Source: Frigoribacterium sp. Leaf263 (GTDB lineage: Bacteria; Actinomycetota; Actinomycetes; Actinomycetales; Microbacteriaceae). From it: 64,000 nt of DNA. Position numbers and translations under genes: made by a program. The stretch covers positions 201,297 to 265,296 of the forward strand of contig NZ_LMMO01000003.1 of assembly GCF_001422285.1 (NCBI RefSeq), written 5' to 3'. The notes under the pieces are model-generated. The model was given only the letters and a program-made list of their open reading frames with translations, did not search any database and was not told the origin of the DNA. This document shows positions 38,665 through 43,228 of the stretch, one piece after another (the stretch's first letter is position 1; each line of letters opens with the position of its first letter).

Positions 38665-39768
38665 TCAGCCTCGGCGGACCGCCGAGCCGAGACGGTCGGC
38701 GATCCTGACGATGCGGCGATCACGGAAGGCCGCCAGCTCGGCGTCCTTCGCGGCGAGGGCGCCCTGCAGACGCCGCCGCTCCTCCGCCCAGCGCACCTTG
38801 CTCGCCTCCAGCACCGCCTGGCCGTCGAGCTCGATCATGAGGTTGTGCAGACCCACGGCGCGCAGCTCGGCGACCTCGTCGTCGGGGATGACGTCGTCGG
38901 CGGCGAGTGCCGCGGGGCTCGTGGGGCGGGGCAGGGAGGCCAGCGCGGTGGCCAGCGAGTCGTCTCGGACGAACTCGTCCGAGACGGAGTCGAGGAGGCG
39001 CGGGTCGGGCTGACGGATCAGATACGCCGGCAGCAGACGGTCCTGTTCGAGACGGGCGAAGTCGCGCATGCCGTGGTGATTCGGGCTCGGTTTCAGATCG
39101 GGGTTGGCCCGGTACGACAGGCCGGCGATGCGGACCTTGTGCTCGAACTGCGCCCACGAGCGCCAGGGGAGATGCAGCACCTCGAGTTCGAGACCGGCCG
39201 GCGGGCGCCCCGTGCTCGTGATCGACACGTAGTGGTTCCCCTGGCGCACGACGACGTCGGGGGATCCGACGTGGATGGCGTTCGGCGTGGGCTGCGCGTG
39301 GACCCCGACCGCCTTGAGAGCGGCCTCGCTGCGGTGGTCGCGGTAGACGAGCCGGTCGATGCCGGCGCCGCTCCGGGCGGGGTGCCCGACCATGTTCGTG
39401 ACCGGCACGGGGAACGACTGGAGGGCGACGGGCATCCGGGCGAAGACCTCGCGCAGGGTCAGCTCCGGGTCGAGCGGGCGGAGGAACTCGTCGGCGTCGG
39501 CGTTGACGACCCAGTCGGCCCCGTACCGCGTGTGGGCCTCACGGGCCATCTTCGTGACGACGTCGCCCTGCTGCTTCTTCTGCACCGGGTCGTGGTGCAG
39601 CACGATGCGCCCGTCGTCGGCGTACCGCTGGAGGATCTCGGCGGTGCCGTCGAGTGAGCCGTTGTCGGTCACGATGACGACGTCGACCCCCTGTGCGAGG
39701 TGGAACTCGAGCATCGACTCGACGATGTCGGCTTCGTCTCGGACCATCATGGTCATGGCGAGGGTCAC
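38665..39768 (-). CDS. glycosyltransferase family 2 / GT92-like
   Basis: A 367-aa protein. The GT domain (about 1-240) begins TLAMTMMVRDEADIVESMLEFH, then VIVTDNGSLDGT and WVVNADADEFLRP, the acidic donor site of the Glyco_tranf_2_4/GT92 group. NHYVSI and HLPWRSWAQFEHKV follow. The C-terminus is a probable coiled coil (about 325-360). GTG 39768 overlaps the upstream gene's stop by 4 nt, so it is cotranscribed with the large GT2. Confidence 0.85.
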   Translation of the reverse strand: MTLAMTMMVRDEADIVESMLEFHLAQGVDVVIVTDNGSLDGTAEILQRYADDGRIVLHHDPVQKKQQGDVVTKMAREAHTRYGADWVVNADADEFLRPLDPELTLREVFARMPVALQSFPVPVTNMVGHPARSGAGIDRLVYRDHRSEAALKAVGVHAQPTPNAIHVGSPDVVVRQGNHYVSITSTGRPPAGLELEVLHLPWRSWAQFEHKVRIAGLSYRANPDLKPSPNHHGMRDFARLEQDRLLPAYLIRQPDPRLLDSVSDEFVRDDSLATALASLPRPTSPAALAADDVIPDDEVAELRAVGLHNLMIELDGQAVLEASKVRWAEERRRLQGALAAKDAELAAFRDRRIVRIADRLGSAVRRG

Positions 39769-42260
39769 AGGGCGTCCTTCCGGGCCCGGTCGAGCGCGAG
39801 CTCGACGAGGCGGTCTGTCTCGGTCTCGACGTCGGCGCCGGCGGTCACCGGGACGACGATGTGGTTGATGCGGGTGACGATGGCGTCGAGCGGGGTGCTC
39901 CGGCTGCGCCAGAGGATGGCGAGCGCACCCGGCTGCGGGCTGACGACGACGTCGCCCTCGATGGTGAGGGTCACGTCGTCGAGGTGACCCGACGGGCGGT
40001 AGTGGTCGCCTCGACCGTCGACCACGACCTCCTGCCCCCGCCGCTCGAGTGCCGCGACGAGTCGGGTCACCAGGGCGTCGCGCCCCGGATCCGCCGCGGT
40101 CGTCGGGGCGTGCGTCTTGATGGCCCAGCGCAGGCACGGCGCACCGGTGTCCGGGCCCGTGGCGACGAGGCGGCGCGGGCGCACGACGATCGGATACGCG
40201 CGTCGGAGCTGCCGGTGCTCGGCGGGCGGCGTCGACTCGAGGTGGGGCGCCGCGAAGCCGTAGGCCGCGTACCGATGCAGATCGGAGTCGGGGTAGGCGC
40301 CCTGCCACCTCTCGTCGAAGAGCGCGCGGTTGACGGTGTTCGTCACCTTGCGACCCGTGCTCTTGCTCTCGTGGTGCTCGACGACGGCGGCGAGCTCGAC
40401 CTCGTGGTGCGCGCCGGGGCGGAGGGCGCCGGCCCGCAGGCACAGGTCGACGTCCTCGAGTCCGTTGGTGAAGCGCGTGTCGAAGCCCTCGAGCTCGACG
40501 ACGTCGGAGGCCCTCAGCAGCATGGCGGCCGCCGTCACCGCGCTGAACCGCGTGACGCCTCCGCGCAGAGCGTCCTCGCGGGGGTGCCCGGCCAGCAGAT
40601 GCCAGGGCAGGATGCGGTCGCCGCCGAAGAACGTCCCCGCCGTCTGCACGGTCCCGTCGGGGTACAGCAGGAGCGGCTGAACGGCCACCGTGGTCGGATC
40701 CGACCGGAGGCGCGCCACCAGCCGGTCGAGCGCCTCCGGCTGGACGACGGTGTCGTTGTTGAGGAACAGGACGTCCGCCCCCGTCGAGCGCGCGAAGGCC
40801 AGATTCGAGCCGAGGGCGAAGTTGAGATTCTGCGGGGCGCGGATCACGACGACCCGGTCGTCGTCGACGTACCGGGACGTGAGGATGGTCGAGACCGAGC
40901 GCCGGGACCCGTTGTCGACCACGACGACCTCGACGTCGCGCCCTCCGGCCGTGGCGAGGACGGCGTCGACGGCCCGGATGGTCATCGACCAGTCCTCGTA
41001 GGTGGGCATGCAGACCGAGAGGCGGTCGGCGACCCGGTCGCCGAGAGCGGCGCGCTGGGCGGGCCAGTCGACGAGGCGGCGCTCGATGACGTGCTTGTCC
41101 CAGACGCGGGGGTCGTCGGGCGTCGTCGGCAGGCCCGGTCGCGCGGGGGCCCGGTGGCGCACCTGCGAACCGGCGACCGGGACCACGGGCGCGGCCGCGA
41201 GCAGGCGCAGGACGAGGTCGAACGCGTGCCCTCCGCCCAGGGTCGTGTCGACGGGGCCGATGGAGCCGAGGGTCGCGCGGGGGATCAGCAGGGCGCCCAG
41301 CGGCACGACGTCGCCGAGCACGAGGGACGACTCGACCGAGGCTCCGGCGGAGCGGTCGACGCCGGGTCCGCTGATCGTGTTGGTCGACCGGGAGACCGCC
41401 AGCGAATCGGGAGCGGCGCCGAGCGCCGTCGCCATGAGGCGCAGGTGGGGTGGGGCCCAGCGGGTGCCGACGGGCAGGAAGGCCACGAGCGCCGCCGAGC
41501 CCGCCGCCGCGCCGGCGTCGAGGGTCTCGCCGTGGCTGCCGCTGTCGATGTCGAGGACGGTGATGCGCGCGTCGCGTTCCGCGAACGCCCGGGCGGTGGC
41601 CAGGGTCTCACCGGGGTGCGGATCGGCGACCACGACGGCTCGCCACGACGGGTGCGTCTGCGCGACGAGGAGATCGAGGCGGTGCGTGAGGTCGGCGGGG
41701 TCGTCACCGGACGGGACGACGACGTCGAGGGGCTGGTCGGGGGCTGCGCCGGGCGCGGCCGTGGGCGACGGGGTCTCGGTCATGGCGGCCGCGTCGGTGA
41801 GGTCCCGGAGCCGGCCGGTGGCGGCCAGGACGGCGTCGCGGTGTCGGGCCGCGCGCGACGACGGATCGGCCAGGGCCTCGTCGGTCGCCGCGCGGACGGC
41901 CTCGACGGGGGAGGCGTCGGGTGCGACCGCCCAGAACGGTCCCGGTGAACGCTGACCCCGCGGGTCGAGCAGCTGAGCGTCGAAGGGCGACCCGTCGTCG
42001 TGCGCGGCGAGGAGCCACTCGGGCTCGACGAACGGGTTGAGGGAGACGTCGGCGCCCTCGGGACGCTCGAGGTGGTGGCGGAGCGCGTCGAGATCGGAGG
42101 AGAAGGTCCGGCCGGTCTGCAGCTCGTAGTAGCCGCGGTCGAGAACGCCGGCCCGGTCGAGGCGGCGGGCCCAGGATTCGCGGCGGGCGAGAGCGGCGGC
42201 CGACGAGCGCCGGAGCGCGCCGGTCAGGCGGTGCAGGGCGGATGTCCGTGTTCCGATGAT
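39765..42260 (-). CDS. large multi-domain glycosyltransferase, apparent AUC start
   Basis: The frame containing ATG 41783 stays open for another 159 codons upstream, with coding-like GC-rich third positions, but has no ATG, GTG or TTG until a TGA near 42293. At 42260 an ATC stands 7 nt after a perfect GGGAGG (42268-42273); a TACCAT box lies at 42310-42315. Read from there the protein has 831 aa. The N-terminal segment has RAGVLDRGYYEL and NPFVEPEWLLA, as in other polysaccharide glycosyltransferases. A first GT2-like half follows, then a second GT2 domain (LSVCMPTYEDWSMTI, VVDNGSRR, LFLNNDTVVQPE, EDVDLCLRA). The tail shares a CgeB-like segment with the gene at 36763. If AUC is rejected the protein starts at 41783 (672 aa). 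Confidence 0.75.
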   Translation of the reverse strand: MIGTRTSALHRLTGALRRSSAAALARRESWARRLDRAGVLDRGYYELQTGRTFSSDLDALRHHLERPEGADVSLNPFVEPEWLLAAHDDGSPFDAQLLDPRGQRSPGPFWAVAPDASPVEAVRAATDEALADPSSRAARHRDAVLAATGRLRDLTDAAAMTETPSPTAAPGAAPDQPLDVVVPSGDDPADLTHRLDLLVAQTHPSWRAVVVADPHPGETLATARAFAERDARITVLDIDSGSHGETLDAGAAAGSAALVAFLPVGTRWAPPHLRLMATALGAAPDSLAVSRSTNTISGPGVDRSAGASVESSLVLGDVVPLGALLIPRATLGSIGPVDTTLGGGHAFDLVLRLLAAAPVVPVAGSQVRHRAPARPGLPTTPDDPRVWDKHVIERRLVDWPAQRAALGDRVADRLSVCMPTYEDWSMTIRAVDAVLATAGGRDVEVVVVDNGSRRSVSTILTSRYVDDDRVVVIRAPQNLNFALGSNLAFARSTGADVLFLNNDTVVQPEALDRLVARLRSDPTTVAVQPLLLYPDGTVQTAGTFFGGDRILPWHLLAGHPREDALRGGVTRFSAVTAAAMLLRASDVVELEGFDTRFTNGLEDVDLCLRAGALRPGAHHEVELAAVVEHHESKSTGRKVTNTVNRALFDERWQGAYPDSDLHRYAAYGFAAPHLESTPPAEHRQLRRAYPIVVRPRRLVATGPDTGAPCLRWAIKTHAPTTAADPGRDALVTRLVAALERRGQEVVVDGRGDHYRPSGHLDDVTLTIEGDVVVSPQPGALAILWRSRSTPLDAIVTRINHIVVPVTAGADVETETDRLVELALDRARKDAL

Positions 42261-42373
42261 CTTCTCGCCTCCCGCGGCCGTGGCCGACGTCGGTCAGTGT
42301 TCTCGCTCGATGGTACCGACGGCGGTGCGGCCGTCGACTCGCGCCCGCCCCGACCCGGCGGACGCCGTCGTCG

Positions 42374-43228
42374 TCAGCCCAGGCGGGTGCTGAGGGTCGC
42401 CCGGACGCGCAGACCGATGCGCACGAGACCTCGGACGGGGGCCCAGAGCGGGCCCGGGTAGCGCGTCGCCACGAAGCGGGCCGCGCTCTCGTGGTGCGCC
42501 CGGACCATCGCCGCCTGGCGCGTCGTGGTCGAGTGGGCGCCGACGTGCATGATCTCGGCCGACGGCCGGTACCGCCGTCGCCATCCGGCCTGACCGAGGC
42601 GGAAGCAGAGGTCGACGTCCTCGAAGTACATGAAGTAGCGCTCGTCGAAGCCGCCGACCTGCTCGAAGGCCGAACGGCGCAGGAGCAGGCAGGCCCCGCT
42701 CAGCCAGTCGACGTCGCGGGGCTCGACGGCCGTGCTCGTCTGCAGGTAGTGACGCGACCACGGGTTGCCCGGCCAGAGGCGGACGAGCAGGGCGTGGCCG
42801 ATCCCGTCCGTGAACGACGGGAACTTGCGGGCGGAGGGGTACGTGCTGCCGGCGGCGTCCGCGATGTGCGGCCCGACGGCGGCGACGTCGTCATGGCGGT
42901 GCAGCTCGTCGAGCAGCTCGTCGACGGACCCCCGGCCGAGCTCGACGTCCGGGTTGGCGACGAGGATCCACTCGATCTCGGGAGCGAGACGGGCGCAGGC
43001 GGCGTTCACCGCGCCTCCGTACCCCTTGTTGTCGTCGAGCAGCAGCACGGTGGCGTCGGGTCGCCGCTCGCGGAGCAGCTCGGGAGCGCCGTCGGTCGAG
43101 CCGTTGTCGGCGACCACGAGCGTCAGCGGATCGGCGGACGACGCGGCGATGCTGGCGGCGAACCGTTCGAGGTAGTCGCCCGACTCGTACGACACGGTGA
43201 CCACGGCCACGCGGGGTGTCTCGTTCAC
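42374..43228 (-). CDS. rhamnosyltransferase-like GT2 (WbbL type)
   Basis: GT-A glycosyltransferase (284 aa) of the WbbL group, which transfers rhamnose to a lipid-linked sugar. Motifs: VVTVSYESGDYL, VVADNGSTDG, NKGYGGAVNAA, LVANPDVEL, DWLSGACLLLRRSAFEQVGGFDERYFMYFEDVDLC and HVGAHSTTTR. GTG 43228 has AAGGGA 5 nt upstream and overlaps the stop of the GT4 gene. With rml genes present, dTDP-rhamnose is the likely donor. Confidence 0.87.
   Translation of the reverse strand: MNETPRVAVVTVSYESGDYLERFAASIAASSADPLTLVVADNGSTDGAPELLRERRPDATVLLLDDNKGYGGAVNAACARLAPEIEWILVANPDVELGRGSVDELLDELHRHDDVAAVGPHIADAAGSTYPSARKFPSFTDGIGHALLVRLWPGNPWSRHYLQTSTAVEPRDVDWLSGACLLLRRSAFEQVGGFDERYFMYFEDVDLCFRLGQAGWRRRYRPSAEIMHVGAHSTTTRQAAMVRAHHESAARFVATRYPGPLWAPVRGLVRIGLRVRATLSTRLG

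Follow-up and report, generated by a model that had tools for sequence, protein, structure and literature searches.

Where does translation of a large GT2 glycosyltransferase of Frigoribacterium sp. Leaf263 begin? The gene lies on the minus strand of the stretch of DNA analysed here (64,000 nucleotides, hereafter the window), and the initial annotation had pointed out that its frame remains coding for 159 codons before ATG 41783 without any ATG, GTG or TTG; it had proposed that the gene uses a genuine AUC start or that a normal ATG is disguised by a deviating base. Few bacterial genes with starts beyond ATG, GTG and TTG have been characterised, according to PMC5472188. We propose, as the probable answer, that the glycosyltransferase starts at an AUC codon (42260, possibly 42257), that its synthesis is kept low by IF3, and that the translation of the next gene is coupled to it.

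Start region and close orthologues

The features of the locus are collected in Table 1. In the window sequence ATG 41783 is the first in-frame ATG, GTG or TTG, 159 codons past ATC 42260, and the surroundings of the two codons are as the initial annotation had described them, with GGGAGG 7 nt before the ATC, the TACCAT box further upstream, and nothing resembling a ribosome site at the ATG.

Table 1. Features of the glycosyltransferase locus, in window coordinates
Feature	Position	Strand	Remarks
Upstream GT2 gene (PF00535)	42374..43228	-	113 nt intergenic gap to ATC
TACCAT, -10-like promoter hexamer	42315-42310	-	5' end of conserved leader
Leader (predicted 5' UTR)	42261..42309	-	in-frame TGA 42296-42294 inside
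GGGAGG, Shine-Dalgarno sequence	42273-42268	-	7 nt before ATC 42260
ATC ATC, proposed AUC start (42260) and second AUC (42257)	42255..42260	-	
Glycosyltransferase gene	39765..42260	-	831 codons and stop: N-terminal 159 codons, GT2 domain, C-terminal part
ATG 41783, first in-frame standard start	41781..41783	-	no ribosome site
Next gene, GT2-like (PF13704)	38665..39768	-	GTG start overlaps glycosyltransferase TGA by 4 nt (GTGA)

Matches to the protein at E <= 1e-30 were found in 5 of the 16 genomes of the genus, that of the window among them, and the closest orthologues are those of F. faeni NBRC 103066 (75% identity) and Frigoribacterium sp. CFBP 13712 (49%). In these three orthologues, which represent a single genus, with no great distance between the window and F. 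faeni, the protein opens with II(G/N)xRT, encoded by ATC ATC, and the two codons are preceded by GGGAGG in the window and in F. faeni and by GGAG in CFBP 13712. The first in-frame standard start occurs 159, 93 and 46 codons past the first ATC in the window, F. faeni and CFBP 13712, respectively, and no ATG, GTG or TTG start common to the three was found. In both close orthologues, known from separate assemblies, ATC ATC thus occupies the place that corresponds to 42260, and both carry the N-terminal domain encoded upstream of ATG 41783, which supports the first option of the initial annotation, a genuine AUC start. As the AUC has been kept across three species, it has been selected or at least long tolerated, and is no accident of one genome.

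The pairing with the anti-Shine-Dalgarno sequence, computed with a general bacterial 16S tail, amounts to -10.3 kcal/mol before the ATC in both the window and F. faeni, and to -1.7 kcal/mol at best before ATG 41783; the same computation yields -8.2 kcal/mol for infC and values between -2.4 and -7.9 kcal/mol for seven other genes of the cluster. The start region of CFBP 13712 is the weak point of the AUC case. Its Shine-Dalgarno sequence is weaker (-5.4 to -5.8 kcal/mol), and GGAG is separated from the first ATC by only 2 nt and from the second by 5 nt, so that the second ATC is better spaced than the first. This spacing favors the second AUC among the other noncanonical codons near the ATC pair at which translation might conceivably begin, the rest being ACG codons of the leader (2 or 5 codons after the TGA) and CTG codons (8 or 11 codons past the first ATC), all present in frame in the window and F. 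faeni. We nevertheless regard a start at any of these codons as unlikely: initiation at the second AUC would in any case be AUC initiation, and the ACG codons precede the Shine-Dalgarno sequence, in a part of the leader that is not conserved in CFBP 13712. Neither CTG is kept in CFBP 13712, in which the first CTG is found 19 codons in, and both were rejected as candidates.

Of the 57 nt that precede the ATC, 52 are identical between the window and F. faeni, as compared to 24 of 60 (ungapped) just upstream; from the ATC onward, the match is complete over the first 18 nt (18/18). The leader of the GT4 gene, judged by eye, is likewise well kept between the two genomes; therefore, we do not count the conservation of the GT2 leader as special. 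It shows what appears to be a working promoter and ribosome site, and is unremarkable in degree. The TACCAT hexamer is unchanged in F. faeni and corresponds to TAAGAT at the equivalent place in CFBP 13712, and no conserved -35 element was seen by eye. ATCGAG in the -10 region is also common to all three, and in the window (42311-42294) and F. faeni it reads as five codons (ATC GAG CGA ...) followed by TGA, in the frame of the GT2 gene. This short frame is probably just promoter sequence, as CFBP 13712 lacks its stop.

A search of the 16 genomes of the genus with the 76-nt leader returned strong matches only at its own locus and at one site in the genome G005, and among the matches listed there was no sign of a repeated regulatory leader elsewhere, the next match having an E-value of 8e-4 and the weaker ones being short pieces. 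The pattern SD-ATCATCGGAAC with up to three mismatches has matches in all 16 genomes, while the exact ones among the matches listed are those at the GT2 locus and in G005. The computed folds of the leader RNA, compared by eye, revealed no structure common to the window, F. faeni and CFBP 13712.

Coding signal and selection before ATG 41783

The stop-to-stop frame of the gene (42293-39765, minus strand) is opened by TGA 42296-42294 and contains a match to PF00535 (GT2; E 3.6e-27, 95.8 bits against the curated cut-off of 23.3), followed by a C-terminal part for which no Pfam match was found at E <= 0.1. A codon-usage scan of the whole window, which considered stop-to-stop frames from 150 codons upward and comprised 50 ORFs called coding by codon usage, detected a coding signal in 167 codons before the first standard start of the GT2 gene, with a log-odds score of 44.8. 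This is the only one of the 50 ORFs that exceeds 5 log-odds units; the runner-up scores 4.4. At a resolution coarser than one codon, the scan places the onset of coding near 42284, i.e. 8 codons before the ATC. The coding character of the 159 codons before ATG 41783, as well as the lack of ATG, GTG and TTG among them, is confirmed.

The comparison of the window with F. faeni yields dN 0.23 and dS 0.49 for codons 1-90, dN 0.46 and dS 0.62 for codons 91-159, and dN 0.09 and dS 0.59 for codons 401-660, which encode the GT2 domain. The corresponding values for the window and CFBP 13712 are dN 0.43 and dS 1.07 for codons 1-90, and dN 1.06 and dS 0.84 for codons 91-159. For the first 20 codons, dN (0.29) is slightly higher than dS (0.26). 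Within the upstream stretch, constraint acts on the part that encodes the domain and hardly at all on the linker behind it (codons 91-159).

The high dN/dS ratio of the linker, together with a weakly initiating start, is what one would expect of partial loss, and it could be argued that the start was lost in an ancestor and that the gene is a relic, translated poorly or not at all. However, three species whose proteins are 49-75% identical all retain an intact frame, the GT2 domain is clearly constrained, and the leader with its ribosome site has been kept between the window and F. faeni, which makes this scenario very unlikely. It is even harder to believe that translation begins at ATG 41783 and that the 159 codons before it are untranslated or a remnant. 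This ATG is the first standard start, and in F. faeni, too, ATG is found at a distance of 159 codons; yet the codon has no ribosome site, CFBP 13712 has no ATG there, and the stretch before it exhibits the codon usage of coding DNA and encodes a domain found in homologues from other genera. We conclude that ATG 41783 probably encodes an internal Met. Finally, the second option of the initial annotation, a sequencing or assembly error with ATG as the true sequence, has only the great rarity of AUC starts in its favor and is practically negligible, as ATC ATC recurs in three separate assemblies.

More distant homologues

The conserved N-terminal domain extends from W30 to W82, i.e. entirely before ATG 41783, and in the window its start is 26 codons away from the ATC. 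Among 32 loci compared, 25 encode this domain, and 20 of them remain after removal of the window, both close orthologues and their second copies. We assigned starts in seven of these 20 homologues, picked for having a plain start (loci L004, L005, L006, L010, L034, L035 and L038), and found ATG or GTG 27-34 codons before the first residue of the domain; some homologues also possess in-frame standard codons nearer to the domain, which renders their starts uncertain. Two of the seven belong to the same genus (G007, 42% identity, with ATG 31 codons before the domain, and G012, 34% identity, with ATG 27 codons before it), and the other five, with ATG or GTG 29-34 codons before the domain, come from two other genera. 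The additional locus L037 gave a weak match, and no standard codon turned up within 60 codons of it.

In six of the seven homologues the start overlaps the stop codon of an upstream frame of at least 280 codons (as ATGA, GTGA or TGATG), which suggests translational coupling; in L010, the stop of the upstream frame lies 79 nt before the start. The AUC therefore looks like a derived trait of one Frigoribacterium lineage, in which it would have replaced an ATG or GTG that was often coupled to the gene upstream. As the homologues in G007 and G012 start with ATG, the enzyme can do without the AUC.

infC and IF3 in the genus

AUC serves as a start codon in this genus, judging from infC, which has ATC AGC GAT at its conserved start in all 16 Frigoribacterium genomes. 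A survey of the order, in which infC was matched in 56 of 59 genomes and 30 loci were taken, revealed ATC in 26 loci and ATT in 3, the motif not being found in the remaining one. PMC5472188 reports that infC starts with ATC also in Streptomyces. An in-frame standard codon is present somewhere upstream of the ATC of infC in 14 of the 16 Frigoribacterium loci, at differing places. In three of the 16 genomes (L051, L055 and L058) the conserved ATC is preceded, at a distance of 7 codons and ahead of the Shine-Dalgarno sequence, by an in-frame ATG that an annotation program might pick as the start.

We also considered a loosened IF3 specific to the three genomes with the AUC glycosyltransferase. 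This idea was abandoned, as no residue change peculiar to the window, F. faeni and CFBP 13712 was found in the 185 of 209 alignment columns of IF3 that were listed.

Gene neighbourhood

The tested neighbours encode a GT4, a GT2, a second GT2-like protein, a PF13524 glycosyltransferase-like protein, a PF00483 nucleotidyltransferase, an ABC-2 permease and an ABC ATPase. On the basis of this set, the cluster most likely makes a surface polysaccharide exported by the ABC transporter. A homologue of the upstream GT2 gene precedes both close orthologues, and the overlap with the downstream gene is also GTGA in F. faeni and TGATG in CFBP 13712.

The GT4 gene, which precedes the GT2, has peculiarities of its own. 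In CFBP 13712 (L078 / L033) there is no ATG, GTG or TTG in the 20 codons between the upstream stop and the conserved start of the protein, and in the window (TTG 44379) and F. faeni the sole standard codon is a TTG, with GGAG 12-13 nt away. In L088 and L089 (G013 and G015), no standard start occurs in the 25 codons examined of the best GT4 homologue; there, CTG overlaps TGA (CTGA), and a CUG start coupled to the upstream gene is possible. The GT4 genes of some relatives, with no standard start nearby, hint that such starts may be commoner in these clusters.

Proposed mechanism

We propose the following scenario for the AUC start. A promoter near 42310 would give a leader of approximately 40-45 nt, in which the strong Shine-Dalgarno sequence, evident in the DNA and in the computed pairing, would hold the 30S subunit with the AUC in the P site and compensate for the poor pairing of the start codon. 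The fMet-tRNA would mispair at the third base, and by analogy with infC and sigR we infer that IF3 rejects most of these complexes, keeping the output low, and that the output would climb when IF3 is short or less active. The next glycosyltransferase may be translated by coupling via the GTGA overlap, in which case both enzymes would be limited together. It is tempting to extend this picture to a surface-polysaccharide operon placed under IF3 by a conserved AUC, with two coupled glycosyltransferases that follow the supply of the initiation factor and possibly the growth state; we hold this extension only tentatively, with somewhat less than even confidence.

If the scenario is true, a cell-surface sugar pathway is subject to the same start-codon proofreading that controls infC. 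With a conserved AUC on a biosynthetic enzyme, and with infC as a built-in control, the number of genes that respond to IF3 becomes testable in a further genus of Actinobacteria. On the practical side, gene finders that assume ATG, GTG or TTG would call the glycosyltransferase 159 residues short.

Comparison with known systems

In the open-licence literature, we found no report on an AUC initiation codon or on a start codon in Frigoribacterium, only eukaryotic reports on AUC start codons together with IF3, only a chloroplast paper and a review of mRNA decay on infC together with AUC, and, judging by the titles of the best 12 of 3,810 matches, which included sigR, no bacterial glycosyltransferase with a noncanonical start. 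The closest parallels come from genes of other functions. The infC gene resembles the glycosyltransferase in having a conserved AUC (or AUU) start with a good Shine-Dalgarno sequence; however, IF3 controls its own synthesis, whereas the glycosyltransferase serves in biosynthesis and shows no evident feedback on IF3. The pcnB gene of E. coli is another gene, distinct from infC, with a start of the AUN type (AUU), but it is proteobacterial and encodes a poly(A) polymerase. The seven homologues with ATG or GTG share the N-terminal domain with the glycosyltransferase and differ from it in their standard starts. Another close precedent is the Streptomyces sigR gene, whose GTC start with an extended RBS was demonstrated experimentally to be repressed by IF3 (PMC5472188). 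Like the glycosyltransferase, sigR is actinobacterial, overlaps with the gene downstream and has an extended RBS and a noncanonical start that is conserved in the genus and not known beyond it (PMC5472188); unlike the glycosyltransferase, it encodes a sigma factor and uses GTC rather than ATC, and its repression by IF3 is experimental, while that of the glycosyltransferase is deduced by analogy. The glycosyltransferase joins a small known set of genes with noncanonical starts, and the mechanism itself is not new.
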